Shown: positions 301 to 59,278 of the stretch, in pieces | Position numbering within the stretch: position 1 is the stretch's first letter | How the letters are laid out: the number at the start of each line of letters is the position of its first letter | Source of the DNA: Apostichopus japonicus | Taxonomy: Eukaryota; Echinodermata; Holothuroidea; Aspidochirotida; Stichopodidae | Reading direction: 5' to 3' | NCBI RefSeq assembly: GCF_037975245.1 | Contig: NC_092569.1 | Span: 16,939,501 to 17,003,500, forward strand | DNA: 64,000 bases | The notes under the pieces: generated by a model | Told to the model about the DNA's origin: nothing | The model's input: the letters and a program-made list of their open reading frames with translations, nothing else | The model's database searches: none | Made by a program: the position numbers and the translations under genes

Positions 301-611
301 GTCGTAACTTTGTTATTTACAGCAGAGGTAAACAATTCAGTACATTTGACCGAGACCATGATACTTGCGGTAACTTCCACTGTGCACAGGTACACAGAAG
401 CGGCTGGTGGCATTCTGATTATTATTGCTCTTATTGTTATAGTTCCAGTTATTGCCATGATTTTCAATACAGCAGCAGCTGTCAATCACGTTGTACCGAT
501 GACAACCTCAATGGAGTCTACAATGGTGAACGGGGGACACAGATCTTCACTGACTACTATTACAACTGTAACATCGGATCCGTCGAAATGAAAATTCGAC
601 CTTCTTCATGA
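301..611 (+). CDS. Gene A (plus type), last exon: C-terminal part of a fibrinogen-related protein; earlier exons lie outside the window
   Basis: The exon follows a pyrimidine-rich stretch ending in CAG at 298-300 and runs in phase 1 (GT completes a Gly codon) to a TGA at 609-611. It encodes the P subdomain of a fibrinogen C-terminal domain. Visible hallmarks are KQFSTFDRDHD (the Ca-binding Asp run), the HRSGWWHS core, DDNLNGVYNG and the closing VEMKIRPSS. Between GWWHS and DDNLNG lies a Cys/Tyr-rich loop with five cysteines, spaced as in genes C and F. No stop or frameshift is seen. The seven upstream exons expected from genes C and F would lie left of base 1, so the gene is cut by the window edge rather than broken. 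By family it should be secreted and bind sugars or acetylated ligands; that is inference. Confidence 0.88.
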
Positions 612-6045: not shown

Positions 6046-9000
6046 TCAAGAGGATGGTCGAATTTTCATCTCAACAGTTTGGGGGTTGCAGTAATTATTA
6101 TAATAAGAAAAGATCCTCTCTCCGTTGCCCCCATTGTAGTCCCCGTTGAGGTTTTCATAAGTACAAATTGAATGGCAGCTGCTTCCGTATTGGAAATGAT
6201 AGCAATAGTCACTTGTACAAGTAGAGCACCAATTATTCGAGTGCCACCAGCCACTTCTGTGCTTCTCTGCGCAGTTGAATGTATCGCATGCGTCGTTGTC
6301 TTGGTCGTATGTGCTGAACGGCTTACCTTTGTTATTAGAGAGATAATAACCTGCGAATTAAGAACAGATCCATCAGTGGTTAATTTGTGAACAACAAAAT
6401 TTAAGGTAAGCAATGTTGTCCTTTTCCACACCTTTCTATGAATCAGAAAACGTACTAAATTTTCACCAAAAAGGGTGGAGGGGGTGGGAAGTCTCAGTTG
6501 TCTAATTGAAGGAGAGTAAGAAACAATGTCTTTTTTCATATCTTTATTTTAGTTCAAGCACATTTTAAGAACTGGAATATTAACATTTAGTTTCCTGTAT
6601 TTTAACGAAATCATTTGCAAGGAGAGACTTTTTTTTACATAAATATATAGATTGTATAAATCATTTCCTCATGAGAAGTGCCGAGTTTCATAGAGCTTGA
6701 AATCAGGCTTATATTTGAATGGTGTTTATTGGTTTCCAGTAGCTCTGAGAAGTTGCATACTCACGCTACATGTTACACGTGAGTACGCATCATGTTTTCT
6801 TTGGTAGTCATACTATTGTTGTTTTGAGCAATGCAGCTAAAGTAAAAGTAATCGTATCGGATAAGTCATATGTTCTCAAACATTGCCGGGAACTGATCGA
6901 CTGATATATTATTATACGTTACATATTTGGCAAGGAACTTGTGTGCTTTTGTTCAATGTATGTGTGCTTGTTTATAACTGTGAAAACAAATCTCATGATC
7001 TTTATGTTGACCTTGTAATCTCTCCTACTAGATAGATACTTGTATAATGTTTAGCAAAATTTAATGACAATAATGTCTTGATTAGAATTAAAAGTAAATT
7101 TTCAAATGTTACTAATGCGACCTTTGTGTTTATTAAGTTTATTAATGTCATACACAGATATACACAAGACAAAATAACACGTTCCTTGATATTAATTAAT
7201 GCTGCCAGTATAGAGGAATATCATTTTAAGTCCATCACGTTTTGGCTTACACTTTTTGCATTATTTCTTTCTTGTTCCATAATTGGTGCTTGGGCTAAAT
7301 AAAGTAATAGTAGCTTTTATTGTTCGCACTACTAAAATGGACTCGAAGCTAGATGTCATACTATTGACCTAAACAGAGTGAGGACGTTTGTCGGAGCCGG
7401 AAAGGGGAGGGAGGTTTTATACAATAACATAATGTGTTACAGCATTTCAGGAACTAACAATGTTTATATTTAACATTAACATGTCATTTGTCACAATTTT
7501 AAAGTCAATTCTTTACGTAAGTTTGAAGTTTGATGTATCATTCTGAGAAAGAATATGAATTGCAGACATATTAACAACAAACCTGCAGCTCCACTGGGAC
7601 TGGTCCTGCTTCCCAGTTTATTCATTTTGTACTTGGTGTCCTCGGACTCTATTTGAAACTCTGTAAACTCAGAATATAGACTCGTCCCATCTGAAGTAGT
7701 AATATCAACTCGTAGTTTGGTAGGGTTCAGATTGGTCAGGTAATAGAGTTTCTCATTCCCAAGCCATAGGTTTCTGTTGTTACCAAAGCCTTCTTTGTAT
7801 GTAGTCCAGTTTTGATGAAAACTAGTTTCGTCATCAGTGCGACGTTGAAAAACCTATCATTGAAACAATAGAAAGAGGCATTGATATCAACGAAGGGAAA
7901 TCCATACGGTTTAAACATGATTAAGAAGCAAAGTTCTACAGATCGTCTTAAAGATTACATCATAAATAATATTTTAGTGAATTACCCTTTAAATTGTTGT
8001 CACTTTCTGGATTACAATCGATGGAACATAACTGAATAGTATTCATATGTTCAAGGTATTTTAAGATATTAATTGTCATATTTGGAACCTTCAGTCATGT
8101 TAATTTGTTGAATGTTTATCTAATGTAGTTTGCTGGTTTAATGTATATAACTGGAATGTATCCAGAGCATTTACTCATAAGAATACATGAGCAGCGTTGA
8201 AATGACTCACGGTCCATCCTTCGTCGCCGTGCATTTTGCAGTGAACACTGAATGGGGACTCTGTCCATCCAGAAGGCATGATTGTATATACGCCATCGCC
8301 ATGTCCAGCGTCATTAACATCCTGGCAGTCTGTATACAAGGATTCACAAGTTGCACCGTCACCTTCGTATCCTTCATTACAATAACACTGTCGTATTTCA
8401 TTCCTGACATCACACACAGCATCGGTACTACATATGTAGTCGTCACAGATCAGTCGGTTATTGTTACAAGAACACTTTTGTGTGCAGTCTTCGTTAACGG
8501 ATGTTTCTCCGTTCTAGAATTAAATTGATGAAAATATTAAAAGACTAATGTTTCAAATGGCTATTGTGCTTACATTTTGTGTTATTGTAACGCTATTACA
8601 TTGAAGTTTTATTTCTGTTTCGTTTGCATTGTCACTTGATATTGAAATTAGTCATGCGAATACTCACTGGTATAACCAGGTTGGCCTCTGCTACGAAACA
8701 CCCGCATTCACTCGCACTGATGCAGTCACTGCCTTGCATGACGAAACCAGCTGGACAGGTGCAGCCCTCAGTACCCAAACAGCTACTATTACAACCAGAT
8801 TGTCCGTTGGGATCTTCACATGTTGCTTGGCATGTACATATTCCGTAGATCATGTTCGTAGGACATGTAGAGATCAATGTACCTGTCAGTTTGTAAGACC
8901 AACAAAATACTTCCAATTTTGACAAGAATCATTGCAAATACCTCTGCCATGAAATATTATCATTTCCAAACTTTAAAGTAAAATAGTTAAATAAGAAGAA

Positions 9001-12000
9001 GCAACATTGAACAGATTATGCAGAGTGAAGAATACGGCTTTGAGGTATATATTTTTGAAATAATAAAGTTATGATTGTATTATTATTAACATTTGTTTGT
9101 ACTTTTTATTATTTTTTTTACTTACGTGCATTACTTTCGAGTGGTCCAATATGTGTAACCTTATATTGCCCCCATTCATCAGTGATACGAAATCCTCGGT
9201 ATGTTGTATAGAAAGAAGCTCCATTAGATAATTCTATATCCACACGAAGTTCGTAGTCTGCTTGGTTCGTCAAATATGATAACTTTTCATTGCCGAGCCA
9301 AAACTCAGTTGAGAGAAAACCAAATCCATCTTCATACTGTGACCAACTCCTATTGAAATTCACAGAACCGCTGTCGCGGCGTTCTATGACCTACGATAGA
9401 AGAGAAACAGATTGAGAATACTATCACCACTTAAATACACTCTCTTAATTGCACACAAATATGAAACGGACAATAGATTTTATCCAGTCATGTTGCTATT
9501 AACACAGATCATTTCCGAAAATAACAGCCCAATATCGACGTTACTGGATGGAGGATGCCACTTGTTGACGATCCCTACACATTGTTAAGTTATAACACCT
9601 ACATGCTAACATAAGGCTTTATCACGTTTAAAATATGACATACACATTTCCATTTAGACGTACCGTCCAGCCTCCTCCGCCAACGTCGTTGTTGCAGTAC
9701 ACCTCAAATGGTTCTTCAAAGCCATCTGGCTTGATAATGTATACTCCGCTAGAGTTGGACGTAGAACATTGACTTTGAACGTCTCGGCAGTCCTTTGGAT
9801 ATTCAGAACGTTGATAAAAGAAGTAATGAGCCACTGTAATAAAGAAATAAAAATATTGAAAAATTATATCATATGCATGCTTTGTGTTCAATTTCTAATA
9901 AAAACGTGTCACCGTATAATGATACTTAACCGATAAAGAAAATTTTCTGTGATTTTAGGAGATCGCTAAAACCGCAGCAGGAAAGTTGAACTAGATAATT
10001 GTTTTGAAAAGTAACATGGACACCTAACATCAAATTGGGTACATATGTCATTCCCTGTGTAAGAATACGTTGCATTTATCTATTTTTTTCTCTTTCTCTT
10101 TTTCCCTCTCTATTTTTTCTTTATTTTGTTTAGGGGGTAGGGCGATATTATATATATTATAAAACAATTGTCAAAAATATATGTTGTAATGTTTGCATTT
10201 TTGTTAATTTGTCGAAAGTAACACACTAAATACTGTCTCACACATATACTGTCAATGAAACAGAAACAAAAACAGAATTAAAAAAAAGAAAGTTATCTTG
10301 AAAATAACGAAACTCATTTATATTGGTTAACTACGTGTTTTATATTAGATGGAATGACAAAACAGATCAATTGAGGTTAATGGGTGAAAAATCTTACTTT
10401 GAGTGTCATCTGTAGTTGAAGGTAAACTTCTCCGATGAACAGTCTATTAATGAGAAGAAGAGTCATCAACAATATATGTCAATATGGTATGTTTATTGAT
10501 TGTAACTGCCAGTAAAGAACTATCAATTTTTCTCAATTTCATTTATGAAATAATCTTGTACAGGCAAATTAGAAATTTTGGATAAAAAAAAATGAAAATG
10601 ATTAATATTTTAAATGGTTATTCACGAACATTCTTACCTACGCCAGGATGTTAGATAACTTCATCCATTACAGTTAAACAATTATTCCATTTTAATTTTG
10701 AAATGTGTACCTAACTTAATAAAATGAGTAATAAACAATCAGAAATGACTGTAAATATTTTCCATAATAAAATCTATAAATATATATTTTCTTTTAAGGG
10801 GGGGGGGGGTGGGTGGGTTGGTTGACTTAACCTTAGCTAGATTTCAAACTCAATATATTTGTTAAGGTTTTCTTCTTATTTGCACTATAAATATTTGCAA
10901 AGGTATTGGCTATACATTCAAAGAACACAGATGCAAATAGAATATATTTTTGGGCAAAACTGTGTTAACGATGAAATATTGATGAAGGCTGAATAATTTC
11001 GAATTTTACTATTTTACATTAACGAAACATGTGAACAAAATATGTTTGTAAACATTAATTTTCATATAAACAGTTCTTTAAGTTCGATATGACATTTGCC
11101 TGTATTTTGTTTATAGAAGTAGTAACTTCAGTGAATGAAGAAAACGTAACAAATAATATTTGTCTCTTATATTCAAAATGGCAATTTGTACATCGTCGCA
11201 ACATGTTTAGACCGGTATATTTTACAATGGAAGTTTTGGTAGGAAATGGATTAAAGTAATGATTTTTGTATAGGTAAAGATCCTCAAAATGACATAAAAA
11301 TAAACTTCTTAGTCCATTGACGCAGAGATCGTATGCGGTGCTATCGTAGCGTTTTCAGGGATGATCAATGAATGACGATTGGAATTAAGAAAAACCTACT
11401 TGTGAAAGAAGTAATATTTTTGAATACTAACGAAACGACTCTGAATTAAATGATAACTTGAGCCTATCGTTTATAACATATTTGCCAGTGTTTCTAGCTT
11501 GATAAAACGTATCAATTATTTCAATAAATAAAGTATACGACGTGAGTTAATGTGTAAAACAACCACAGCAAACACTTTATGTCTAATGGAATTGAGTATA
11601 TGAAAGGAAATTAAGAGTTCTATACACCGTATATTGTATTTATTAATTAAGACCTTTCTTACATAATGAGAGTACACTATTGGTTGACATTGAAATACGG
11701 CACGGTATGAATTGTACTAATTGCATGCGATAGGTTTACACGAGATTTTGGTCGATGTAAATAAAAAATATGCTTTAAATTGCAAAAAAAAACTAAATAT
11801 AATACATGTGAAAGTACTTAGCGATATTCTTTATCGATATATCTGTGTTACAACCTGAGCTAACGTTACATTAAAGAAACAGTCCAACGAATTGAGGGTG
11901 CAATTGTTGTAAACGTCATAATTTGAAGTCACCGAAAACTAGGTTTATAGTATATTACCCATGCATATCCTTTTCAAATTCCAGGAGTATCAAAATATCG

Positions 12001-13941
12001 TAGTTAAGGGTTTTATTGTCAACTTAAAAACGACTTTTTTGATAGATTAAGAAATTAACTCAGTAATTGTGCATTAGTCTTAATCGTCAGGAGAGACCGG
12101 TATTTTACCGGAAACTTCTAAGTACTTTTAAGACAACAAGAAGGAAAATTTTGAACAAACGAGATAAACATATATACATAGATATTATTAGTTTAAACTA
12201 AACAACAATTTTAGGGTATATCATTGCAAGTAAAGTATAGCCTTTGAAGTTTACCCATGACATTATGCAAGGTAAAAATAAGGTTCATTCATATATTAAC
12301 CAATGCTTACTAAGAAGAAATGGAATAAAACTAATTGGGAAATATATTAGTAAGTTATAGTAGCAAGTTTTTTAAACAGATTTTCTTTCTGATTTAAAAT
12401 TAAGTAATCTAGACCGAAAGTATACCCAGTCTCGTTAAATGACGTTGATGGACAAACAAGGACAAAGATGACGAATTTTAATTACAAACTTTATCAAAAA
12501 GGGTTATTTCTTATGTCTAAGCTTTCAGCACACATATTTCCAAAGTTACTACATGGAAGTTTATGTTTTTCTAATAACAAACAACCTTATCATTTTACAG
12601 GCCCGCCTATAATATTTCAATAACTTTGTTGATACTTTGAGTATGATATAATTATATTGACAATGATTTTCCTTTGCTATCAATGCTCAAACATAATTTA
12701 AGACCTATTTGACAAAGAGATTAAGTAATGAAATGATCAAGAATTTTCAAGAATTTACAAATTTTCTCAATTAAACAATATATTATTAAAATAATTCAGT
12801 TTAGATTGATTCGATTCATAAGACTTTATTTGACTAGTGCAAACGCGTAACGGCGAACGCGCCAATTGGACAAGAAGTGCAGTAATTTTATGTAATAGAA
12901 AGCGGACTGCAATTATTATTATTAATATTATATTTTTTACACTTGATATAAGAAGCAAAAGTTGGATAATTGAATTAATCAAATTTAAAGCTTGTTTTTT
13001 ATTCGAGTACGATTTACCTATACTTTACTTTGTCAATTCTTAGCGTACCAATGTAGTCAAATCAATCTGTTACTAGGCAGTTATACATATCTATATAAAA
13101 CTTTTAGCGTCTTGATCATAGTTAATGACATTTAGTGAGATCTACGTTGCAAGTTTACAGTTTCTAAAATGAATAGAGTATAACTGTTCAACTGTCTTAA
13201 AATAACTTTATCAAATGTTCTATTTTATTTTGAAAATATTAACAGTTATGTACCTAACCATAAAGAAAAATATACGAATGTCGTTTTCAGCTTTAGTGTT
13301 ATTGCATAAATAAGCGACGAATGGGAAATAAATACACTTAGCCAGATACATAGGCAATAAGGTGCGATATTAATTGAAAATATGAGAGAAAGTTCATCAA
13401 GGCAATGTAAAATTTGAAATATAACTAAACAGAAAATATAATTTGTTATGCAATTTCTTTTATAAGTTGCAATGCAAATTTTAAAACAAAAACACACTTT
13501 TATGTAGGCTGCTGAAGATAGATTATTCATTTGGAAAGAAGGAATTTATATATAAGAAGACTTCGAAAAATACATTTAATTTTTTATTAGTGGCCATATT
13601 AAAACTGCATGAGCTACTAAAACTCAGAATGTTGTATTAAAAATTGTAAAACAGATCATCAAGTTATAACAAGTTTCCATTTTTATGTTGGAAAATTTAT
13701 AATCAAGCAGGCATGAAAAATACATGTCAAAAAAATTCCCAGTAGTTGAATTTTCTACATGATATTTTGTTTAAATTATAACATCTAACAAGCAACACAG
13801 AAACGTGGACGCAAAGATTGATGAGAAATAAGAACAGGAACTTTAAAATGTTTAACTCACCGTTTCTTCCGAGGACGTAAAGGCGCTGGTTGTTGTGAAC
13901 AAGAATGCAAATACTGCTCGAACAGCCACGGAGAGCTCCAT
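6046..13941 (-). CDS. Gene B (minus type): secreted fibrinogen-related protein with TIL and EGF-like modules, 551 residues
   Basis: Coding exons in order are 13941-13861, 10443-10398, 9833-9664, 9390-9126, 8882-8668, 8513-8211, 7853-7583 and 6350-6046. All have AG/GT borders, and the total of 1656 bases is open to a TGA. Residues 1-27 are a signal peptide (MELSVAVRAVFAFLF...). Residues 28-42 are a polar linker; 43-187 are the N-terminal part of a fibrinogen domain (CRDVQ, FEVYCNND, FWLGNEKLSYLTN) without its P part. Residues 188-259 are a TIL domain with about eleven cysteines; 260-360 hold a VWC-like NGETSVNEDCTQKCSC, an EGF-like CNEGYEGDG and the start of fibrinogen domain 2. Residues 361-551 complete domain 2 and end VEMKIRPSS. 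Family knowledge suggests an extracellular lectin, perhaps immune. It is the closest paralogue of gene G. The 3.4-kb first intron starts with the signal exon alone. Expression and start site are not proven, but the TATA box at 14040 supports the start. Confidence 0.88.
10444..13860. other. Intron 1 of gene B
   Basis: AT-rich DNA without a recognisable gene. An oligo-G run at 10798-10810 sits at the point where gene G has a long (AT)n run, and gene E a short one. The intron is collinear with 58878-62976 in gene G except for a LINE fragment there. Gene E lacks about 1.6 kb of it. Confidence 0.65.
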
Positions 13942-21854: not shown

Positions 21855-24800
21855 ATGGAGTTTGTCTTGCTTGTAAGCGCATTTTTTGCATTTTCGTGTA
21901 CAACGATTGTCAACGTTGCGTCGTCAGATCAAACGGTGAGTTACATAATCTAGAGTAGTATTTGATTTTCCATTATATGAAATTTCTACATATATTTTTC
22001 AAGATCCAAATAGTTTGTAATTATTGTATTTACAAGAGAAGGTGTTCTAGATAATGTATAGAAGGAATATGATTATTGGTTGATACGAACGATAACGTTT
22101 CACATTTCAAAAGTTGTTTTTATCACAATGTTGAAGGCATAGTACATGATCTTTATATTACAACTCATAAAGCAAACCAGATTGTTACTATCTGAATGTG
22201 AATAGCATTAGAGTAATTGATTTTTTTCCTTTCATTCATTTAATTCAAACAAAAGAAAAATGGAAAATTCTATTATTTACTCTAAAAGTAATTTGTAGTT
22301 ACACCAACTGCCATTATTGCTTTTTCTTCACTTTGTGAATTTGTTCTTATATTAAATGAAACACATTTTGTCCACATATTTGTTTTCTTAAGAATAAAAG
22401 AATATAATGTATTCATTAATAGAGTACCGCAAATTAATAAAATTCAACCTAAGATATCGTGAACATATAATTTTACGTACAGCACACATTGAGATTGACA
22501 CATTGAAATGTCAAAAAATGTTCACATGTTTGATTTTCTTAAGTTACCATTACTACTAATATTCCATAGTCGAACAAATTTATTTACTTTCATTTGTGTA
22601 CTAAAATGTACCGTTCATATCCCTATTAAACTTAGCAAGAGCAAGGAGGATTTAGATGAAAACATTTTTTGCTATTGTTTCTTCATTCACGCAAAGAAAG
22701 CTTTATATGGTTGTATAAACTTCATATTAATTCATGTAATGAGTCAAATGATGTATTTATCTCAAAAATAAGACATTGCTTTCATTTGTTCATTAAAAAA
22801 AGAAGCCACGTGCATTTCCTAGTAGAGTTAGAAACAAATAAGTTCACTTCTTGTCATATATATATATATAAAGTTATGTTTTCATGGTTTTCATCTAAAT
22901 TATTTTATATAAATCCTCTGATGATTCCAGTAACAACTTTAACGACGTAAACTCAACTTTCGGTTAAAAACACTATAAACAATTTTTTGAATAAAATAGT
23001 CGGACTAGAAAGAAGTAAAATAATTATAATGACTCTTTACAAATGATAACCAACATATCATGTTAACTCATCTCCATTATATCGTTAGCAATATGTTGAT
23101 ATACGTTTATTTGCTAGAAATATGTTTCCTATGAACTGGTGTTCACGGCCATCATTAACTCAGCATACAACTGGCTGAATATTGGGTTGATAAACTTGTT
23201 CTATGGTAATATAAGTTGTCGACAAAATAGTTGAAAGAGTAAGCAATTACCAACCTCAGATGTAAACAGTAATCTGGGAAAAATATTCAGTTGTAACATT
23301 ATGTTTATTTGAGTCATACCATAATACTAATTAGCGAGATCGTCATCGAACTGGCTAAATTCAACTTATTGTTACGAATATCATTTAAATATTTAGTCGT
23401 TGGATACATATTATGCATTATGTCATCTACTTTGCTAATTAAAATACAACAACGAAACTTAGAAAAGAGCGACAGTATCAAGTTTGCATGGGGTTTCCTG
23501 AAAGCCATTTTCTTTTATTCTTTGATTCTTTCAAAATGTGGGACGTAAAATATACTTTTTGTCTGTGATGTCTCTCTTGGAAGATTAAGAGAGAGTGATA
23601 ATATTGTTATAAAAGTGCTCAAATAATTGTTAAGAAGATATAAATGAATACCTGGATCAGGGATAAGGCTGATGGGCCGGTAATATAATGGATCGGATTT
23701 GGAGTTAGTTCACTACATTTTTTTTCCAAGAGGATTTTATCTTACTCTGATGAGGTTACGAAATGATAATTAATAGTGCTAAGAATTTGACGTTACTGAC
23801 TTTACCTCTCTCTAGATTATTATCATACAGACAAATGGATAAGTTCTATAACCATGCTAATGGGCACAAAAATATCGTTTTTAAACATGCTAGTATCCTG
23901 AAAAGTTAGGGCGAAATGTGAAATAACAAAATTTACATTGATTATGTCTTTAAAACAGACTACTAGCAGTTACATTCATCAAGCTCGATCTTGTTAACGT
24001 TTAACATCATGAATAAACGTGAGCGGTGCTTCTTCGAATTTGTCAATATTCAACAAAGTTACACTTGTAAGATTTCTCTATGGACATTTTTAAGTATATA
24101 TCCCTAAATTGATCAATGTATTCATTTTGTATGGCTACCACCGGATCAATGTAGTCTTCAAACAAAGGTAACAGAAATTTATGTTAGGATGCAAAGAACG
24201 AATTTGGTTGCATTGACAATAATGTTCGCACGTTTAATAACGGTGAGATGTATCTCACGATTTCCACTATGAGAGAACACGTGCATTGATTTTTTTCCAT
24301 ATCTACAAGACATCATATATTATTTATTTGCAGAGTAATCATCAGCACAGCCTGCCTTCAACTACAGATGACACTCAAAGTGAGATATATGTTGCCTTTT
24401 ATAAGTTATTATATTTATGTTTACAGTACGTTTAATTTTGCTTTGGTGAGTAACACTATTTTTTTCAGTAATTGAGAGTACACGATGCTACAAATTTAAT
24501 CATCGTGTTATATCTCAATATAGCAATGCTCTTGGCAATGCAAAGAGGCAAGAGCAGTTGCTAAGTCTAATATTATAATTAATTTACACAAGTGAGAGTC
24601 AATAACATGCCAGGCGTTATTCACATTAGTCAAACTGTCTTTGGACAATGTCCTTGTCAAGAAATTCTTTTCGGTTAAATGTCCAAAACAAGTGGAAATT
24701 GAAATGTGTATTAACGGTATGTTTTTGAGATATTCATTGTGAGGATTATAACTTAATTCAAATATATATCCATTTTTTTTGCAATTATTATTATCACCTG

Positions 24801-27800
24801 CAAAAGTAGTGCAGAAATTATGTCGCTTTTCTTACAGGTGGATCGTATTTCTTTTATCAAAGTTCTGAATATCCCAAGGACTGTCGAGATGTCCAACGTC
24901 AGTGTTCTACATCAAGTTCCAGTGGAGTATACCTCATCAAACCAGATGGTTATAAAGAACCATTTGAAGTATTCTGCAACAACGATGTAGACACAGGAGG
25001 ATGGACGGTACGTCCATGACTATTTAAAAAAAAATGCTGCCAAGAGTTTGCTTTAAAATAAGTGTCGTGCTGCTATTTTCGGAGATACATAATGCATGTC
25101 AATTTTTCAAACAATTTGATGATTAATTTATCACTGTAATATATTAAAGTTGAAATATTTACTTAGCTATCAATATGATGTGTAACTATTTGGATTTCAT
25201 TAGTACATATTTTTTGTAAAAATATTTGGTTTCTCATGAAGATGAAATGAAATGGATTTGTAAAGAGAAGCAAACATAGTTTTAACTCAGTTACCAAGAT
25301 GACATCATTGTTGCATTCATATCATAACACTGAACGTGAACAATTATTTTTACAGAGAGTTATGAGTACATAGTTTGACCAAACGATGTCAATTTTTACC
25401 AATTTCACTAAGCTATCAACTGCAACCACCAGAAAAATAACTAGCAACAGGAATATGTTTTAAAACTCGTTTCTTTATGTTAGGTCATTCAACGACGCGA
25501 GGGTGGCTTTGTGAACTTTAACAGGAGTTGGGCACAGTATGAAGATGGATTTGGATTCCTGTCCTCTGAGTTTTGGCTCGGCAATGAAAAGTTGTCGTAT
25601 TTGACGAATCAGGAAGTGTATGAACTTCGTGTGGATATTACTCTTTATAATGGGTCAGCCTTGTATGCTATTTACAAAGATTTCCGTATCACTGACGGAT
25701 GGGGTCAATATATGATATCCAGTATCGGAGTATTGGAAAGCAATTTAGGTAAGTGGCTGAGATGATTGATAAAGTCTTAAATCAAGAACTACCGATCGTT
25801 TACCTTTATCTCCAAGTATTTTACATTCGTTCCCATCAATACAATGCAAACACGTTTCCTTCGTTTGTTCATTGTGTACACATTTTCATTGCGTTATTTC
25901 TAGCCCGGAAATTCTGGTTTTGCCATAAAGTAATATTACATATTTGTTTCCCATCCAGGCTCAGCACTGTCAACCTGTCCTTCGAATATGATCTACAACA
26001 CCTGCAGTTGCCAAGCAACGTGCGATGATCCCAATGGAGCGGGTGGATGTAATAATACCTGCCTGGGTAGTGAGGGTTGTAACTGTCCTACAGGGTTCTT
26101 AATGCATGGAAGTGACTGCATCCCTACGAGTGACTGTGGTTGTTTCATAACAGATGAGAATTTGGTTATACCAGTGAGTACTTAATTTTATTTAACTATA
26201 TATTGCTATTGCGAATACTCACGAAAGTATGACTATTTTTGGTCTTATATATTGTTACTGTTTTGTATTTTAGAATGGGGAAACATATGTCAACGATGAC
26301 TGCACACAGAAGTGTTCGTGCAGCAATAACCGAATAAGCTGTGAAGATGACTACAGGTGCAGTGCTAATGCCGTGTGTGATATGAACGCTGAAGTGAGAC
26401 AATGCTCTTGTAATGAAGGTTATGGAGGTGACGGACTAAGTTGTGAACCTTTATATGAAGACTGTAAAGATGTTTACGACGCCGGCCATACACAAGATGG
26501 TGTTTATACAATCGTTCCGTCTGGATGGTCGGGCTCATCATTTAGTGTGTACTGTAAAATGGATAATGGTGGAGGATGGACGGTAAGTCTTTTGTTCTTT
26601 CTGACTGTTGAAACGTGTTAAGAGGTATTAGTTTTAATTTTAGCCGATGACCTGTCTAATATATATAATCAAAATATACAATTCGCTACGGAAATTACAT
26701 TTCCGGCTTATTTACAATATTTAAGTTTACACATACAATTCGGATACATTATTGAAAAACTAAAGGAACTCTGAATAATAGTAAACTTACTCAGTCCACA
26801 GTAATCTATGAAAGTAAGAGACAATAACTTTATATACAAAAGCATATTCTAATGCGCCCTATAGAACAGCTTATAGACACAAAAGTATTGTTTTGCTGTT
26901 TCATACGGTTAAATGTCATGCATAAACTGATATTGCATTATCAAAACATACAATATCTATGAACCAATTGATTGCTTGTTAATAAATGATTTTCGCTTTT
27001 TTTTTTACACATTTGCTCAGGTATTTCAACGTCGCACTGATGATTCTACTAGTTTCTATAAGGACTGGATATCTTACAAGGAAGGATTTGGTGACGGTGA
27101 AAACTTCTGGCTAGGTAATGAAAAGCTTCATTACATGACAAATCGGAAAAATTACCAGCTTCGCTTTGACGTCACTACCTCCGACGGGACACGGAAATAT
27201 GCTGAATACCCAGAGTTTCAAGTTGAGTCTGAAAGCAACAACTACAGATTGAATAAACTCGGAGATAGGAGTAGTGGCAATACAGGTTGGTAAAGACTCT
27301 TCCTCTTCTCTTAACCTTTTGGTTTCGGGAGTGTTGTTCCGAGGCGTAATTATAGTCATATAAAAGCACGTACTGGTTGACCATCTGCAATGTTTATATT
27401 TTATACCCTCTTCCGTGCAATAAAAATATAATCAATTTCAAATAACGATATGTCACAGTTATATGTAATTTATTACGCTTCAATCGTTAAACCCTAAAAG
27501 TACGTCAGTTTTAAGGCACACCTGATACAGGTCAAGGGTCTTGTGAACAACATTGTCTTTGTCATGTGAAAGAAAGCAGTGGTGCAATGTTTTAATTTAA
27601 GTTCGAGTTCAAATCTCTTTTCCCTCGATGTTTACCTGGTAATGGATTAAAACGATGTTAACCCGTCAATGAATTAATACAAGTTATCCTACTCAAAATT
27701 TACATTTAACCGGTTTAGGAGCTAAAGTTGGAATTATCATGTTAAACGACGGTCTGATTATGACAACGCAGTAGCTTTGAAGTGAGCGTTAATATTACAT

Positions 27801-28873
27801 ACAACCATGAACATAACCCGAACCAATTTTATTATCACAATATAATTGCAGTTATTAGTGTTTTAAATTTGACAGCTTGATTGATTAAAGTTGAAAATCA
27901 CAAAAGATTTGTTGCTTAATCATCTCGAAGCAGACTGATATTAAAACAATAGACAACTATGCTACATTATATTCGATGATAAAAATAACAATCTTCACAC
28001 AAAAACATAAGTTCGAGAAACAACTACAGCAGACGGCTGACATTTTCACAAGTGAATCATGCCAACGCACAAACACACACCCTGCTCTTATCATCAAACC
28101 CTACAAAACATCAATGCATTATGAGATGCACACAAGAAAACTGACCTTACAAACATGATTCAGTGGTCATTTGTATAGTACAATTGAGAATCCTTTACTA
28201 GTGTGCGATTCTTTTAGACTCGAATAGTTACATATTTCCTTTCGACTATGTTATGCCAAAATGGTAAATACTAGAAATATTCATTCAAATTATCACTTAA
28301 ATGATGCGTAGTTCTCACAGCCACGTAACTGAAACATACAGATCAAACAATACATTCAAATCTGAAATAATATGCTCATACATATTAATACATATTTAAT
28401 TAGTATAAGAATATCACTGCGTAAATTGCAGTAATGTCGACATAAGGTAAACTGAAATCTAAACTTAAAGCAAGTAGAAAACATTGGGATTATTTGTTAC
28501 TGCACGTTACCGTAATCAATGTACCAACCGATTTTCCTGTATATGTTTTTCAGGTCGTAACTTTGTTAATTACAACAGAGGTAAACAATTCAGTACATTT
28601 GACCGAGACAATGATGCTTGCGGTAACTTCAACTGTGCAGAGCTACACAGAAGCGGATGGTGGCATTCTAATATTCAGTGCTCTTCTTGTCATAGTTACA
28701 ATCGTTACAATTATTGTCATCATTTTCAATACAGCAGCAGCTGTCATTCAATTTGTACCGATGACAACCTCAACGGAGTCTACAACGGTGAACGGGGGAG
28801 ACAAATTTTCACTGACTACTATGAAAACTGTAACATCGGATCCGTCGAAATGAAAATTCGACCTTCTTCATGA
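21855..28873 (+). CDS. Gene C (plus type): secreted fibrinogen-related protein with TIL and EGF-like modules, 556 residues
   Basis: Exons are 21855-21935, 24334-24379, 24838-25007, 25484-25748, 25959-26173, 26274-26582, 27021-27285 and 28554-28873. The sum of 1671 bases is open to a TGA and all borders are GT/AG. Residues 1-27 are a signal peptide (MEFVLLVSAFFAFSCTTIV); 28-42 a linker; 43-187 fibrinogen domain 1 without a P part. Residues 188-259 are a TIL domain (CPSNMIYNTCSCQATC... CNCPTGF... CGC); 260-362 hold a VWC-like NGETYVNDDCTQKCSC, an EGF-like CNEGYGGDGLSC and the start of fibrinogen domain 2 (VYCKMDNGGGWT). Residues 363-450 are its middle and 451-556 its P part with a five-Cys loop. 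N-glycosylation sites are visible (NRS, NGS, NNT). Intron phases are 0,1,0,1,0,0,1. Probably an extracellular lectin; ligand unknown. The 5' two thirds are nearly identical to gene F. Two extra residues beside YNRYNYC in the loop are unique to this gene. Confidence 0.9.
21936..24333. other. Intron 1 of gene C
   Basis: AT-rich, with no independent gene. It is the part of the C/F repeat in which the two copies are most alike, more so than the exon-bearing 3' part. The open frames at 22508-22771 and 41395-41781 look conserved only because the whole intron is. Confidence 0.6.
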
Positions 28874-30528: not shown

Positions 30529-30683
30529 TGTTTTAGCAAAGTTCTGATTATTTTAAAGATTGTTGAGATGTTCAACGTCAGTGTTCTACGTCCAACTCTG
30601 CGGAATATATATTATCAAGGCAGACGGCTTAAAGAACCATTCGTATATTATGTAACGACTATGTTGGCAAATTGGGAGGGGTC
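30529..30683 (+). pseudogene. Decayed fibrinogen exon (first-half type), copy 2
   Basis: The same relic as at 2695-2863 (GCAAAGTTCTGATTAT, GATGTTCAACGTCAGTG), with its own small deletions and frame breaks. The acceptor side is also changed (TTTTAGC instead of GCAGG). It lies about 1.65 kb past gene C. Confidence 0.75.
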
Positions 30684-32339: not shown

Positions 32340-35300
32340 TCAAGAGATTGGTCTAATTTTCATCTCAACAGTTTGGGGGTTGCAGTTATTATAATAATGA
32401 GAAAAGATCCTCTCTCCGTTGCCTCCATTGTAGTCCCCGTTGAGGTTTTCGTAAGTTCAAATAGACGTGCAGCTGCTGCTGTATTGGAAATAATGACAAT
32501 AGGCACCATAACAGCTAGAGCAGTAGGTGTTCGTGCGCCACCAGCCACTTCTGTGCTTCTCTGCACAGTCGAAGTTGCCACATGCGTCATTGTCTTGGTC
32601 ATGCGTGCTAAATTGTTTTCCTTTGTTAAGATAGAAATTATAACCTGCGAAGTAAAACAGAGAGGACCACCAGTGGTAAAGACTTGGCCATTTAACTATA
32701 ACGTAAGTACCCTGATATATTGCACACTTTGGTTGGGACATAGAATACGTTTTACAGTATAATGGGAAGAGTAGGGGGGGGGTGAAGGGGTTTGATAGAG
32801 ATTCATAATTCAAAACTAATGGGGTAATTCCGTGATCATTATATATACTTCTTGTTGCATATTTATTCTGTATTGATCTTTGTTTTATTCAGGATTACTA
32901 CTCAAAGGAGATGACGATTATATGGATTTAAATTAATGATGTTTAATATAAAAAAAATAGGCTTGCCTACGGGAAATTATTGTTTAATGATATTAAATAT
33001 GATCATTAAATTAGTCACTATTGTGTTTGATTGTTAATGAGAACTAAATCCTTGTCTTTCCATTGACTAATTTTTAGCTATTATTTTCACATTGTAATTT
33101 CAGTCTATGCCTAAGGTTTTCTTTGTCTTCAAACACAGTGTGTGGCTCTTTTTGGTGTTATTGTTTCACAGATCTTATAAGAAACATTATTTTGTTAGTA
33201 GTGTGTGTTCAATCGGGTTTGATTTGCCTTACAATTTTTCTGTGAAGATATAAGGTCGTATTTCTCTTCCATAATATTTCCTGTTCTAATATTGATGCTA
33301 GCTCATTCAGCATATGTTCTTTTTCATCGGCTAGTCAGACTACCTCAATGTTTTGTCTATGATACCAACGGTATCCAGCTGGTACGGTGGCATAGTAAAA
33401 TCTAACACTGTGCTGTTTATTAAAAGTAACAGATCCAGATAGTACGATAATTTTGTACTGTTTCTTTACAGTAAATGGTCTAGATGGGACGATCATTTTG
33501 CAATTGTTCAGAGCATTGGCTCAAATCACGTTCAAGACAAAACCTTCTTTGCCTTTTTAAAGTTTATAACGCCAACACTAGCGAATGCAAAGAAGGTTCT
33601 TCACATCAATCGCAACAAATAAAGATAACCTGATTATGCGTGGTATTATTTCTTCACTGTTTCTATCTATTTTGTGTTCTAATTAATGCGTGAAAATTAT
33701 CATATATACCCAGAAATGGATTATAAACTTCATAAAGTATATCAGTGTGCGTGAATTGTGAAAGTGGGGGGGGGTGGTGGGCAGGAGCGGGCGGCCCGGG
33801 GTGTAACACCAAACCCTCTTTGTGAGGGTTTATGATCCAGTGTATTTAGAGCATATTTTTTAGGTAATATTTATCATCAAGATGTGTTGACGAACACTGT
33901 AGTAACTTTAACTTGACCTACCAAGGCAAGGCGCAAATATCAAATATGAAACAAATCTGTAGTTCCACTGTGAGTGCCCAGTTTATTCATTGTGTACTTG
34001 CTGCTTTCAGACTCGATTTGAAATTCTGTATACTCAGCATATTTAGCCGATCCACTAGCAGTAGTGATGTCAATTCGAAGCTTGTAGTTTTTTCTGATTC
34101 GTCAAGTAATGAAGTTTTTCATTTCCTAGCCAAAAGTTCCTGTTGTCACCAAACCCGTCTCTGTAATCAGTCCAGTTTTGATAAAGTTCGTAGAGTCATC
34201 GTTACGACGTTGAAACACCTGGAAGAATATCGGAAAAGATAATAAAGGAAAGATAATAATGGGAGTAGTTGAAGCATGCTAACAACCAAACTCAATCGAA
34301 GAATACCGACTATATATATATACAAAATGATATTCAGTCTGATAAACTTAAGCTATATTTTTGCGCTGTTTCTCTTAGGAGGAGGGTAATGTTAAGGGTT
34401 GTCATCATTTACATCTACTCAAGTGTTCTTAATATACGTACCTCAAAAAGAATTATTCATAAACAAATCACAGAAACATAGTTGAAACATTTATAGTGTT
34501 TTTCAATGAAGACTTACGGTCCATTCTCCTCCGTTTTCCATTTTAAAATTTACGTCGAATGGTATACCAGGCCATCCAGTAGGCTTTATTGTATACACGC
34601 CATCTTGCCTTTGTCTAGCGTCATAAACATCCTGGCAGTCTGTATACAAGGGCTCACAAGTTTCACCGCCACCTTCATATCCCGCATTACAATAACACTG
34701 TTGTACTTCATTCTCGACATCACACAAAGCATTGGTACTACAGCTGTAGACTGCATAGGTCAGTTGGTTATCGTTACAAGAACACTTTTGCGTGCATTCA
34801 TCGTTTACGGATGCTTCTCCATTCTAAAATGAAATAGATGAACATATAAAAAGACATATATTTCAATTGGTGATTGTGCTTACACTTTGCATCATCGTTA
34901 CGTTATTTAACTTAAGTTTTATTTCTGTTTCGTTTGCATTGTCACTTGATATTGAAATTACTGGTGCAAAATACTCACCGGTACAACCAGGTTGGCCTCT
35001 GTTACGAAACACCCACATTCACTCTTATTGATACAGTCATTCCCTTGCATTAAGAAACCAGCTGGACAGGTGCAACCCTCAGTACCCAAGCAGTCACTAT
35101 TACAACCAGATTGTCCGTTGGGATTTTCAAAATGTTCTGTTTATTGATTGTAGCTGCTCGTAAAGAACTATCAAATTTTCTCAATTTCATTTATCAAATA
35201 ATCATTTACAGGCATATTAAGCATTTTGTAAAAATCAAAATGATTAATAATCTGAATGGCTATTCAAGAACATTCCTACCTACGCCATGATGTTAGAGAA

Positions 35301-40840: not shown

Positions 40841-43800
40841 ATGGAGTTTCTCTTGCTTGTAAGCGCAGTTTTTGCATTTTCGTGTACAACGATTGTCAAC
40901 GTTGCGTCGTCAGATCAAACGGTGAGTTACATAATCTAGAATAGTATTTGATTTTCCATCATATGAAATTTCTACATATATTTTTCAAGATCCAAATAGT
41001 TTGTAATTATTGTATTTACAAGAGAAGGTGTTCTAGATAATGTATAGAAGGAATATGATTATTGGTTGATACGAACGATAACGTTTCACTTTTCAAAAGT
41101 TGTTTTATTCACAATGTTGAAGGCATAGTAAATGATCTTTATATTACAACTCATAGGGCAAAACAGATTGTTACTATCTGAATGTGAATAGCATTAGAGT
41201 AATTGATTTTTTTCCTTTCATTCATTTAATTCAAACAAAAGAAAAATGGAAAATTCTATTATTTACTCTAAAAGTAGTTTGTACCGTTTACACCAATTGC
41301 CATTATTGCTTTTTCTTCACTTTGTGCATTTGTTCGTATGTTAAATGTAACACATTTTGTCCACATATTTTTTTCTTAACAATAAAAGAATATATTGTAT
41401 TCATTAACAGAGTACCGCAAATTAATAAAATTCAACCTAAGATATCGTGAACATATAATTTTACGTAAAGCACACATTGAGATTGACACATTGAAATGTC
41501 AAAAAATGTTCACATGTTTAAAATATATATATTTATACCTAGATTTTCTTAAGTTACCATTACTACTAATATTCCATAGTCGAACAAATGTATTTACTTT
41601 CATTTGTTTACTAAAATGTACCGTTCATATCCCTATTAAACTTAGCAAGAGCAAGGAGGATTTAGATGAAAACATTTTTTGCTATTGTTTCTTGATTCAC
41701 GCAAAGAAAGCTTTATATGGTTGTATAAATTTCATATTAATTTATGTAATGAGTCAAATGATGTATTTATCTCAAAAATAAGACATTGCTTTCATTTGTT
41801 CATTAAAAAAAAAAGCCTCGTGCATTTCCTAGTAGAGTTAGAAACAAATAAGTTCACTTCTTGTCTTATATATAAATAAAGTTATGTTTTCATGGTTTTC
41901 ATCTAAATTATTTTATATAAATTCTCTGATGATTCCAGTAACAACTTTAACGACGTAAACTCAACTTTCGGTTAAAATCACTATAAACAATTTTTTGAAT
42001 AAAATAGTCGGACTAGAAAGAAGTAAAATAATTATAATGACTCTTTACAAATGATAACCAAAATATCATGTTAACTCATCTCCATTATATCGTTAGCAAT
42101 ATGTTGATATACGTTTATTTGCTAGAAATATGTTTCCTATGAACTGGTGTTCACGGCCATCATGAACTCAGCATACAACTGGCTGAATATTGGGTTGATA
42201 AACTTGTTCTATGGTAATATAAGTTGTCGACAAAATAGTTGAAAGAGTAAGCAATTACCAACCTCAGATGTAAACAGTAATCTGGGAAAAAATATTCAGT
42301 TGTAACATTATGTTTATTTCAATCATACCAGAATACTAATTAGCGAGATCGTCATCGAACTGGCTAAATTCAACTTATTGTTACGAATAACATTTACATA
42401 TTTAGTCGTTGGATACATATTATGCATTATGTCATCCACTTTGCTAATTAAAATACAACAACGAAACTTAGAAAAGAGCGACAGTATCAAATTTGTATGG
42501 GGTTTCCTGAAAGCCATTTTCTTTTATTCTTTGATTCTTTCAAAATGTGGGACGTAAAATATACTTTTTGTCTCTGAGGCCTCTCTTGGAAGAGTTAGAG
42601 AGAGTGATAATATTGTTATAAAAGTGCTCAAATAATTGTTAAGAAGATATAAATGAATACCTGGATCAGGGATAAGGCTGATGGGCCGGTAATATAATGG
42701 ATCGGATTTGGAGTTAGTACACTACATTGTTTTCCAAGAGGATTGAGTTGTAAAGTATCTTACTCTGATGAGGTTACGCAATGATAATTAATAGTGCTAA
42801 CAATTTGACGTTACTGACTTTATCTCTCTCTAGATTTTTAGCATACAGACAAATGGATAAGTTCTATAACCATACTAATGGGCACAAAAATATCGTTTTT
42901 AAACATGCTAGTATCCTGAAAAGTTAGGGCGAAATGTGAAATAACAAAATTTACAATGATTATGTCTTTAAAACAGACTACTAGTAGTTACATTCAACAA
43001 GCTCGATCTTGTTAACGTTTAACACCATGGATAAACGTGAACGGTGCTTCTTCGAATTTGTCAATATTCAATAAAGTTACACTTGTAAGATTTCTCTATG
43101 GACATTTTAAGTATATATCACTCAATTGATCAATGTATTCATTTTGTAAGGCTACCACCGGATCAATGTAGTCTTCAAACAAAGGTAACAGAAAGTTATG
43201 TTAGGATGCAAAGAACGAATTTGGTTGCATTGACAATAATGTTCGCACGTTTAATAACGGTCAGGTGTATCTCACGATTTCCACTATGAGAGAACACGTG
43301 CATTGTTTTTTTTCCATATCTACAAGATATCATATATTATTTATTTGCAGAGTAATCATCAGCACAGCCTGCCTTCAACTACAGATGACACTCAAAGTGA
43401 GATATATGTTACTTTTTATAAGTTACTTTATTTATGTTTACAGTACGTTTAATTTTGCTTAGGTGAGAAACACTATTTTTTTTCAGTAATTGAGAGTACA
43501 TGATGCTACAAATTTAATCATCATGTTATATCTCAATATAGCAATGCTCTTGGCAATGCAAAGAGGCAAGAGCAGTTGAAAACGGCAGCTTAGCTAAGTT
43601 TAATATTATAATTAATTTACACATGTGAGAGACATATTAACCAAGTGGCTAAACCTTGATTAACATAAATAATAAAAATAATAAGAAAAACATATCGAAT
43701 TAACGAGAGTCAATAACATGCAAGGCGTTTTTCCTATTAGTCAAACTGTATTTGGACGACGTCCTTGTCAAGAAATTCTTTTCGGTTTAATGTCCAAAAC

Positions 43801-46800
43801 AAGTGGAAATTAAAATGTGCATTTAACGGTATGTTTTTGAGATATTCATTGTGAGGATTATAACTTAATTCAAATATATCCATTTTTTGCAATTATTATT
43901 ATCACCTGCAAAATTAGTGCAGAAATTATGTCGCTTTTCTTACAGGTGGATCGTATTTCTTTTATCAAAGTTCTGAATATCCCAAGGACTGTCGAGATGT
44001 CCTACGTCAGTGTTGTACATCAAGTTCCAGTGGAGTATACCTCATCAAACCAGATGGTTATAAAGAACCATTTGAAGTATTCTGCAACAACGATGTAGAC
44101 ACAGGAGGATGGACGGTACGTCCATGACTATTTCAAACAAATGCTGCCAAGAGTTTGCTTTAAAATAAGTGTCGTGCTGCTATTTTCGGAGATACATAAT
44201 GCATGTCAATTTTTCAAACAATTTGATGATTAATTTATCACTGTAATATATTACAGTTGAAATATTTACTTAGCTATCAATATGTAACTATTGTGTAACT
44301 ATTTGGATTTCATTAGTACATATTTTTTGTAAAAATATTTGGTTTCTCATGAAGATGAAATGAAATGGATTTGTAAAGAGAAGCAAACATAGTTTTATCT
44401 CAGTTACCAAGATGACATAATTGTTGCATTCATATCATAACACTGAACGTGAACAATTATTTTTACAGAGAGTTATGAGTATATAGTTTGACCAAACGAT
44501 GTCAATATTTTACCAATTTCACTAGCTATCAATTGCAACCACCAGAAAAAACAACAAGCAACAGGAATATGTATTAAAACTCGTTTCTTTATGTAGGTCA
44601 TTCAACGACGTGAGGGTGGCTTTGTGAATTTTAACAGGAGTTGGTCACAGTATGAAGATGGATTTGGATTCCTGTCCTCTGAGTTTTGGCTCGGGAATGA
44701 AAGGTTGTCGTATTTGACGAATCAGGAAGTGTATGAACTTCGTGTGGATATTACTCTTTATAATGGGTCAGCCTTGTATGCTATTTACAAAGGTTTCCGT
44801 ATCACTGACGGATGGAGTCAATATATGATATCCAGTATCGGAGTATTGGAAAGCAATTTAGGTAAGTGGTTGAGATGATTGATAAAGTCTTAAATCAAGA
44901 ACTACCGATCGTTTACATTCATCTCCAAGTATTTTACATTCGTTCCCATCAATACAATGCAAACACGTTTCCTTCGTTTGATCATTGTGTACACATTTTT
45001 ATTGCGTTATTTCTAGCCCGGAAATTCTGGTTTTGCCATATATATATATAATATAATATAAGAAATATTACATATTTGTTTCACATCCAGGCTCAGCACT
45101 GTCAACCTGTCCTTCGAATATGATCTACAACACCTGCAGTTGCCAAGCAACGTGCGATGATCCCAATGGAGCGGGTGGATGTAATAATAACTGCCTGGGT
45201 AGTGAAGGTTGTAACTGTCCTACAGGGTTCTTAATGCATGGAAGTGACTGCATCCCTACCAGTGACTGTGGTTGTTTCATAAGAGATGAGAACTTGGTTA
45301 TACCAGTGAGTGCATCATTTTATTTAACTATATATTACTATTGCGACTACTCACGAAAGCAATGACTATTTTTGGTCTAATATATTGTTACTGTTTTGTA
45401 TTTTAGAATGGGGAAACATATGTCAACGATGACTGCACACAGAAGTGTTCGTGCAGCAATAACCGATTAAGCTGTGAAGATGACTACATGTGCAGTGCTA
45501 ATGCCGTATGTGATATTAACGCTGGAGTGAGACATTGTTCTTGTAATGAAGGTTATGGAGGTGACGGACTAAGTTGTGAACCTTTATATGAAGACTGTAA
45601 AGGTCTTTACGACGCCGGCCATACACAAGATGGTGTTTATACAATCCTTCCGTCTGGATGGTCGGGTTCATCATTTAGTGTGTACTGTAAAATGGATAAT
45701 GGTGGAGGATGGACAGTAAGTCTTTTGTTCTTTCTGACTGTTGAAACGTGTTAAGAGGTATTAGTTTTAATTTTAGCAGATGATCTGTCTAATATTTATT
45801 ATCAAAATATACACTTCGCTACAGAAATTACATTTCCGAGTTATTTACAATATTTAAATTTACAAGATACAATTCGAATACATTATTGAAAATACTAAAG
45901 GAACTCTGAATAATAGTAAACTTACTCAGTCCAGAGTAATCTATAAAAGTAAGAGACAAGAACTTTACATACAAGCTTATTCTAATGCGTCCTCTAGAAC
46001 AGCTTATAAACACAAAATGAACTGCTTTGCTGTTTCATACGGTTAAATGTCATGCATTTACTGATATTGCATTATCAAAACTTACAATTTCTTTAAACCC
46101 ATTGATTGCTCGGTAATAAAAGGTTTTCACTTTTTTACACATTTGCTCACACACTTTCAGGTATTTCAACGTCGCACTGATAATTCTACTAGTTTCTATA
46201 AGGACTGGACATCTTACAAGGAAGGATTTGGTGACGGTGAAAACTTCTGGCTAGGTAATGAAAAGCTTCATTACATGACAAATCGGAAAAATTACAAGCT
46301 TCGCTTTGACGTCACTACCTCCGACGGGACACCTAAATATGCTGAATATCCAGAGTTTCAAGTTGAGTCTGAAAGCAACAACTACAGATTGAATAAACTC
46401 GGAGATAGGAGTAGTGGCAATACAGGTTTGTAAATGCTCTTCCTCTTCTCTTAGCCTTTCGGTTTCAAGAGTTTGGTGCGTATTATATTCATATAAAAGC
46501 ACGTGCTGGCTGATCATCTGCAATGTTTATAGTTAATACCCCTTCTGTGCATAACAAATGTAATCAATTTCAATAAACGATATGTAACCATTATGTGTAA
46601 TTCTTACGCTTCAAACATTAAACCCTGGAAGTACAGCTGTTTGAGGAAGAGCTGATATGGGTCAAGGGTCATGAGTTCGACACTGTTCTTTTCGTGTGAG
46701 AGAAAGCAGTGGCACATTGTTTTAATTTTAAACCGAGTTTTAATTTTACTTTCTCTCGATTTTTAACTGGTAATGAATTAATACCAGTTATCCTACACAA

Positions 46801-47954
46801 AAGTTACATTTAACCGGTTCGGGAGCTAAAGTTAGAGTCATCATGTAAAGGACGGGCTGATTATGTTAACACAGTAGCTTTGGAGTCTGCGTTAATTTAA
46901 CATACAACCATGAACATAGCCTGAAGCAATTTAGTTCATCACAATATTAATACAGTTATAAGTGTTTAACATTTGGCAGCTTGATTGATTAAAGTTAAGA
47001 CTCACAAAAGATTCGTTTTTCAATCATCTCGAAGCAGATGGAGATTAAACACTAAACAATTATGCTACATCAGATTCGTTGATAGCAAATTACAATCTTC
47101 ACACAAACTCATGATCGGAAAACGACTACAGCAAACGGCTGACATTTTCACAAGTGAAACATGCTTACACACAAACACACACCCTGCTCGAATCATCAAA
47201 CCGTACAAAACATACATGCATTATGAGATGCACACAAGAAAACTGACCTTACAAACATGATTCAATGGTCATTTGTATAGTATAATTAAGAATCCTATAC
47301 TAGTGTGTCATTCGAATAGTTAGATGTTTCCTGTCCACTATGTTATACCAAAATGGTAAATACTGGAATTATTCATTCAAATTATCACTAAAACTATGCG
47401 TAGTTCTCACAGCCACGTAACTGATACATATAGATCAAACAATACATTCAAATCTGAAGTAATATGCTAATACATAGTATAACATATTTAAATAAGAATA
47501 AGAATACCACTGCGTAAATTGCAGTAATGTCGACTTAAGGTAAACTATAATCTAAACTTATAGCAATTAGAAAACATTGGGATTATTTGTTACTGCACGT
47601 TACCGTAATCAATGTACCAACCGACTTTCCTGTTTTTGTCTTTCAGGTGGTAACTTTGTTAATTACAACAGAGGTAAACAATTCAGTACACATGACCGAG
47701 ACAACGATGCTTGCGGTAACTTCCACTGTGCACAGCTACATAGAAGCGGCTGGTGGCACTCTAATAATCATTGCTCTTATTGTTATAGTTCAAATTATTG
47801 TCATCATTTTCAATACAGCAGCAGCTGTCAATCAATTTGTACCGATGACAACCTCAATGGAGTCTATAACGGTGAACGGGGAACACAGATTTTCACTGAT
47901 TACATCTACAACTGTAACATCGGATCCGTCGAAATGAAAATTCGACCTTCGTGA
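40841..47954 (+). CDS. Gene F (plus type): secreted fibrinogen-related protein with TIL and EGF-like modules, 552 residues
   Basis: Exons are 40841-40921, 43351-43396, 43946-44115, 44597-44861, 45091-45305, 45407-45715, 46161-46425 and 47647-47954. The 1659 bases are open to a TGA, with the same phases as gene C. The signal peptide is MEFLLLVSAVFAFSCTTIV. Then follow the linker, fibrinogen domain 1 (QRREGGFVNFNRSWSQY, NERLSYLTN), the TIL domain, NGETYVNDDCTQKCSC, the EGF-like part and a full fibrinogen domain 2. Against gene C, substitutions include Q to L and S to C in the first fibrinogen exon, T to N in the TIL domain (which removes the NNT glycosylation site), and R to P and Q to K in domain 2. 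The last exon resembles gene A more than gene C in its loop and TQIFTD part, which points to gene conversion. Likely an extracellular lectin; ligand unknown. Confidence 0.9.
40922..43350. other. Intron 1 of gene F
   Basis: Almost the same as intron 1 of gene C apart from small indels (for example an added TA-rich stretch at 41519-41540). No independent gene. Confidence 0.6.

Positions 47955-59204: not shown

Positions 59205-59278
<74 letters not shown>

Follow-up and report, generated by a model that had tools for sequence, protein, structure and literature searches.

A P-less fibrinogen half placed before TIL, EGF and a complete fibrinogen domain recurs in a large FREP family of Apostichopus japonicus

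The architecture described here, in which a fibrinogen A+B part without P (AB1) is followed by a TIL domain, a TILa/EGF exon and a second, complete fibrinogen domain (A2-B2-P), is real, repeated, constrained and recurrent in a large FREP family of Apostichopus japonicus. On balance, we lean towards an overall reading of these genes as tandem-array FREPs that recombine in their 3ʹ parts, with AB1 as a constrained P-less half and with an origin of the layout by fusion. Fibrinogen domains are commonly regarded as a single fold, and a large family in which purifying selection preserves a half-domain makes it testable whether such halves can fold, exchange strands or link chains to one another.

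Results

Gene model and domains of copy W1

The window analyzed in this work is a stretch of 64,000 nucleotides (contig C9, NC_092569.1, positions 16939501-17003500; G000) within a genome of 671.6 Mb in 35 contigs. Copy W1, on the forward strand, was rebuilt by script as a gene of eight exons with an open reading frame of 556 aa plus a stop codon; all seven introns have GT-AG borders and their phases are 0, 1, 0, 1, 0, 0 and 1. Exon 1 (21855..21935) encodes the predicted signal peptide, with a hydrophobic start and a similar exon 5ʹ of the other three complete window copies, and exon 2 (24334..24379, phase 0 to 1), taken from the gene-model script, encodes a short linker. The domain exons were assigned from the gene model and Pfam: fibrinogen A part no. 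1 in exon 3 (24838..25007, phase 1 to 0), B part no. 1 in exon 4 (25484..25748, phase 0 to 1), the TIL domain in exon 5 (25959..26173, phase 1 to 0), TILa, EGF_3 and fibrinogen A part no. 2 in exon 6 (26274..26582), B part no. 2 in exon 7 (27021..27285, phase 0 to 1) and, in exon 8 (28554..28873), a single fibrinogen P part with a Cys/Tyr/Ser-rich insert and the stop codon. The joining of these exons is predicted from their splice signals and from the conservation between copies. The protein order obtained (signal peptide, linker, fibrinogen A+B, TIL, TILa/EGF, fibrinogen A+B+P) and the intron phases, derived by script on the window and by Pfam, were in agreement with the initial annotation; of its "VWC/EGF" element, the EGF part stood (EGF_3), and what it had called VWC is TILa in Pfam.

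Fibrinogen_C was found twice in the W1 protein (4.9e-87 overall, 291.8 bits against a Pfam cut-off of 22). AB1 alone gave 1.4e-38 and covered positions 2-123 of the 221 in the profile, and AB2 with P alone gave 1.1e-46 and covered positions 3-220, that is, one complete A-B-P domain. Pfam also returned TIL (2.6e-8, 34.3 bits, cut-off 24.5), TILa (3.5e-8, 33.9 bits, cut-off 27) and EGF_3 (8.4e-7), and neither an IgSF domain nor a collagen family at E 0.001. Exons 3-4, which make up AB1, are a phase 1-1 block without P; an own P for every fibrinogen part is a usual (not strictly defining) FREP trait, and AB1 has none. A P exon concealed between exons 4 and 5 was ruled out, because the intron between them measures 210 bp and the next exon encodes TIL. 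The gene model and Pfam thus support the two A/B parts, the one P part and the symmetrical phase-1 joints that had been annotated, and the block said to be removable is so: exons 1-4 plus 8 join in frame by script. That exons 3-4 form a phase 1-1 block as well, and that sister copies exist, goes beyond that annotation.

Copies inside the window

Besides W1, tblastn of the pieces against the window gave three complete copies, one decayed copy and fragments. All four complete copies share the same domain order, each is preceded by a signal-like exon with a donor after nt 81 (4/4), and in all four the N-terminus is hydrophobic by eye and in a simple scan. W2 (40841..47954, forward strand) has its signal peptide exon at 40841-40921 and further exons at 43946-44115, 44597-44861, 45091-45305, 45407-45715, 46161-46425 and 47647-47954. 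The remaining two lie on the reverse strand: W3 (6046..13941), with the signal peptide exon at 13941-13861 and further exons at 9833-9664, 9390-9126, 8882-8668, 8513-8211, 7853-7595 and 6350-6046, and W4 (54317..63057), with the signal peptide exon at 63057-62977 and further exons at 58109-57940, 57636-57372, 57108-56894, 56739-56437, 56096-55838 and 54618-54317. The last (P) exon of a complete copy that starts before the window, L031, is located at 301..611 on the forward strand.

The decayed copy (32343..35128, reverse strand) carries stops and frame breaks, and AB1 was not found in it; it nevertheless seems to have kept its start, because a 97% match to the signal exon occurs upstream of it, at about 36579-36774 on the same strand. 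Solitary remnants of A or P exons from this family, all decayed, are present at 2735-2857, 17411-17726, 30528-30677 and 50730-50828. We also noticed a segmental duplication that relates the window at about 25-35 kb to C9:16.89 Mb (L029) with a spacing of about 74.7 kb, as seen in the paired positions of TIL (16890769/16965458), P (16893364/16968053, both 100% identical to the window P) and the decayed copy (16899796/16974476). The copies of the family are not independent of one another, since W1 and L029 are near-identical and the final exon of L031 falls inside the window.

Occurrence of the architecture on contig C9

From 80 candidate regions we fetched the 20 best-scoring TIL/EGF matches outside the window copies. 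The order A1-B1-TIL-EGF-A2-B2-P was present in 17/20 of these C9 loci, a set that is biased to close relatives because best-scoring matches were chosen, so that 17/20 is no genome-wide fraction; the other three (L036, L039 and L043) have TIL-EGF-A2-B2-P, with AB1 undetected at E 1e-4. The whole order is present in the distant L049, a 5.7 kb region at C9:29.5 Mb, where TILa scores 20.1 bits (cut-off 27) and TIL is unlisted, and the Pfam cut-offs are thus not reached. The frame is open across the six domain exons in 21 of the 22 complete copies, L049 included, the exception being L040 with one stop in P, and AB1 is open in all 22.

Nearly all listed AB1-type exons are located on C9. By coordinates, a TIL or TILa/EGF exon lies within 4.5 kb downstream and on the same strand for at least 129 of the 185 listed AB1-type B exons of this contig (43/45 type-I B1 rows and 86/140 further B1 rows), lower bounds among the matches listed, in which an unpaired row may still have a partner; the pairing controls (upstream, and opposite strand) gave 0 and 0. 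The 185 leave out a few rows on other contigs and 29 further B rows on C9 (15.6, 17.8-18.7 and 31.0-31.1 Mb), for which a TIL/EGF partner was found in 0/29 among the matches listed. Twenty-seven B exons at C9:15.6 and 17.8-18.7 Mb, 52-59% like B1 and with no listed TIL/EGF partner, are possibly ordinary A-B-P arrays. Viewed from the other side, a listed B1 in the preceding 7 kb is lacking for 45 of the 172 listed TILa/EGF exons of C9. The conserved copies, together with the 0 and 0 of the pairing controls, ruled out that the layout stems from chance or mis-annotation.

Selection on AB1

Comparison of the coding sequences indicates that AB1 is under purifying selection, with a constraint about equal to or above that of the complete domain, and with no decay. 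We calculated pairwise Nei-Gojobori dN/dS for the 190 pairs that 20 array-I copies form, without L040 and L049, and divided the pairs by gene-wide pS into near, middle and far bins of 18, 84 and 88 pairs. The ratios in these bins were 0.13, 0.20 and 0.10 for A1, 0.23, 0.26 and 0.14 for B1, 0.16, 0.35 and 0.23 for TIL, 0.46, 0.36 and 0.13 for exon 6, 0.58, 0.24 and 0.17 for B2, and 0.34, 0.36 and 0.13 for P. AB1 was not the lowest everywhere, as indicated by B2 against B1 in the middle bin (0.24 and 0.26) and by P against B1 in the far bin (0.13 and 0.14). With bins made from each part's own dS, the values were 0.26, 0.21 and 0.11 for AB1 (A1 alone 0.32, 0.13 and 0.09; B1 0.27 in the nearest bin), 0.62, 0.26 and 0.17 for B2, and 0.54, 0.34 and 0.15 for P, for which 24/190 pairs were dropped due to saturation. 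In the middle bin, dS was 0.21-0.23 in AB1 and TIL versus 0.61 in B2 and 0.45 in P, and because of this difference gene conversion may help to hold AB1 alike.

Between the window array and the array of L049, AB1 is the best conserved module: the tblastn identities of W1 to L049 are 58% for A1, 55% for B1, 52% for exon 6, 42% for B2, 41% for P and 36% for TIL. Since selection keeps the extra half intact, AB1 probably has a job of its own.

Conserved cysteines are found in A1, whose three residues are kept in 21, 20 and 19 of the 21 copies; no cysteine column is conserved in B1. The conserved columns number 3 in A1, 11 in TIL, 11 in exon 6 and 8 in P, and because they sum to an odd number an interchain bond, perhaps from A1, is plausible. 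The third A1 cysteine, however, is also present in the A-B-P gene L008.

Exchange of 3ʹ parts among array members

The trees of AB1 and of exon 6+B2+P are in conflict: AB1 rejects the group W3+W4+L042+L044 (AU p 5.6e-6) and the exon 6+B2+P tree rejects W3+W4+L033+L037 (AU p 1.2e-7), the groups for this test having been picked after inspection of the trees. Intron distances change accordingly along the gene. Between W3 and L033 they are 0.118 (A1-B1), 0.145 (B1-TIL) and 0.130 (TIL-E6), and 0.522 and 0.520 in the last two introns; between W3 and L044 the same five introns give, in order, 0.445, 0.463, 0.250, 0.208 and 0.125. TIL alone was indecisive, with W3+W4+L033+L037 in its best tree at 51/0 and the other grouping at AU p 0.065. 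These data place the exchange, by crossing-over or conversion, around exon 6, between the TIL-E6 and E6-B2 introns, and show that these genes recombine internally, with two ends of mixed ancestry.

With the exchange around exon 6, AB1 travels with TIL. An exchange at the phase-1 B1-TIL joint was considered and found unsupported, the mapped switch lying between the TIL-E6 and E6-B2 introns. Because it falls at phase-0 introns or in exon 6, the switch itself is no demonstration of a phase-1 joining event, and our confidence in the explanation by a recombined family is slightly lowered, since the mappable exchange is around exon 6 and not at the phase-1 joint.

Discussion

The simplest origin of the layout would be a recombination that fused an A-B-P gene with one of the TIL-EGF-A-B-P type; one recombination event between the B-P intron of one gene and the linker-TIL intron of the other would yield the composite too. 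The AB tree (52 rows) groups AB1 of both arrays in a single clade (99/93) with L008 (99/95), at C9:16.70 Mb, as its sister; the A-B-P gene L008, plus L050, has the AB nearest to AB1 among the compared rows. The first 1.5 kb downstream of B in L008 gave neither TIL nor EGF, and a P-like open stretch follows. By eye this P has a frame change and a missing cysteine, and L008 may be a decaying copy because its P looks damaged; a DNA match to the signal exon was absent from C9:16.2-16.7 Mb, the L008 area, which decides nothing. Taking out exons 3-4 preserves the frame just as well, and what remains is SP-TIL-EGF-fibrinogen, the domain order found in this genome in L036, L039 and L043. In the AB tree, the AB2 of these TIL-only genes joins that of the window array (23-row clade, 100/98) and the AB2 of L049 branches outside; for this reason the TIL-only genes look like AB1 losses, unless AB1 was gained twice. 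As the direct parent they are disfavoured by the same tree, although in it all AB2 including L049 form one clade with weak support (73/43). The initial annotation had instead explained the layout by insertion of a phase 1-1 block, from TIL to B2, into the fibrinogen domain of an A-B-P gene, between B and P. The joints are indeed of phase 1, and among the compared rows the gene nearest to AB1 is of A-B-P type and shares its contig; however, such an insertion needs two breakpoints and a donor leaving its own P behind, the opposite insertion (of AB1 into a TIL-EGF-FReD gene) and a fusion with one breakpoint fit equally, and the P trees (two attempts, with long-branch warnings) choose neither side (AU p 0.123 when P is grouped with L008 and 0.236 when it is grouped with L004). 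Insertion is thus one of several equal fits, and we regard it as unlikely.

The symmetry of the phases would also allow alternative splicing, with exons 5-7 or 3-4 as cassettes, so that AB1-P, TIL-EGF-AB2-P and the long form would all come from one gene; the constraint on AB1 would then reflect its folding with the shared P in the short form. Both blocks are of phase 1-1, exons 1-4 and 8 join in frame, dN/dS is kept low in AB1, and in the alignment the B1 end of L049 still resembles an ordinary B-P junction. In the window array, however, the B1 end (such as IGPLESN or IGVLESN) no longer resembles an ordinary junction, whereas B2 keeps an SG-type end in most, not all, copies (both by eye in the alignment), and phase symmetry by itself is weak evidence; splicing of this kind therefore seems to us rather doubtful. 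AB1 could also be a functionless relic of the fusion, its likeness kept solely by gene conversion among tandem copies, as the lower dS of AB1 than of B2 and P in the middle bin, the exchange among copies and the undetected AB1 of 3/20 fetched TIL genes might suggest. The ratios of 0.10-0.14 in the 88 most diverged pairs, the open AB1 in 22/22 complete copies and its place as the best conserved module against L049, a separate array, make a relic highly improbable.

Returning to the reading that we favour, AB1 as a constrained half, we propose that the protein is secreted, with the predicted signal peptide followed by the linker, A1-B1, TIL, TILa, EGF and A2-B2-P. A2-B2-P, the complete fibrinogen domain, would be the presumed ligand-binding head, with recognition of lectin type; AB2-P is probably the head because there is a single such C-terminus, directly after AB2. 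According to an excerpt of PMC5928061, ligands usually bind at P, and the strand that follows P at the C-terminus of Angptl3 lies in the B sheet between beta3 and beta4, so that an A-B part with no P is expected to be one strand short. AB1 probably acts as an unvarying scaffold at the N-terminus or as a partner between chains, since its A part has a conserved third, unpaired-looking cysteine, and through 3ʹ exchange AB1+TIL of one lineage occurs together with B2-P of another. More tentatively, AB1 might be a new, stand-alone structural module, a constant and disulphide-linked interchain scaffold (with TIL) to which recombination within the arrays adds differing B2-P heads for recognition, in more than 100 genes on one chromosome. 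The arrays resemble a recombining invertebrate repertoire of immune type, in which the front is steadier than the back.

Ficolins carry a stalk of collagen, and in FCGBP the TIL is coupled to VWD repeats, not to fibrinogen domains. A2-B2-P aligns along the lectin domain of ficolin-1 (PDB 2jhi, E 6.5e-37) and tachylectin-5A (PDB 1jc9, E 3.6e-34), but the present family differs from both in its TIL/EGF, second A/B part and Cys-rich P insert; FCGBP (PDB 8rde) matches the TIL-TILa-EGF stretch (residues 193-309). Molluscan FREPs (Biomphalaria) likewise form large fibrinogen-domain families that have been connected with defence; in the portion of PMC7588048 covered they have one or two IgSF domains, absent here, and TIL, EGF and a P-less half, features of the present family, are unmentioned. 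For A. japonicus, part of PMC5638244 describes FREPs as the most expanded family, arranged in tandem clusters, with 21 genes on a single scaffold, and located for the most part on one linkage group. The listed AB1-type exons are similarly clustered, nearly all on C9, and no TIL/EGF or half-domain layout is described in the part of that paper covered; the main text of PMC13228809 mentions neither TIL nor EGF. A limited literature search of listed papers and passages gave no described family with this order, in line with the earlier statement that no FREP of this layout was known, and among the matches listed nothing relevant on truncated fibrinogen domains. As far as searched, the layout is therefore undescribed and new within the FREP kind.

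Additional features of the arrays

The Cys/Tyr/Ser-rich insert of P sits between GWW and NLNG, varies in length among copies and is absent from the other P exons compared (L001, L002, L003, L004, L006 and L008). Its dN/dS is 0.8, 0.57 and 0.18 in the near, middle and far bins, the highest within P in the two nearer ones; positive selection was ruled out, none of the ratios being above 1.

The TIL-EGF-A-B-P genes L036, L039 and L043 are alike the family in their downstream exons and differ in the undetected AB1 and in Thr/Ser-rich open stretches 5ʹ of TIL. In L039, at positions 8-5415, 5ʹ of the TIL-only gene, a 294 bp unit is repeated 18.5 times (96% matches), and every copy has a Thr/Ser-rich open stretch close to a GTAAGT; similar open stretches occur in L036 and L043. 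By their sequence, the L039 repeats possibly encode a mucin-like stalk of repeated exons that replaces AB1.

About 100 bp 5ʹ of the signal exon are conserved along with the exon in 32/39 matches (including the window at about 13846-14040, reverse strand), perhaps as a shared promoter or 5ʹ UTR.
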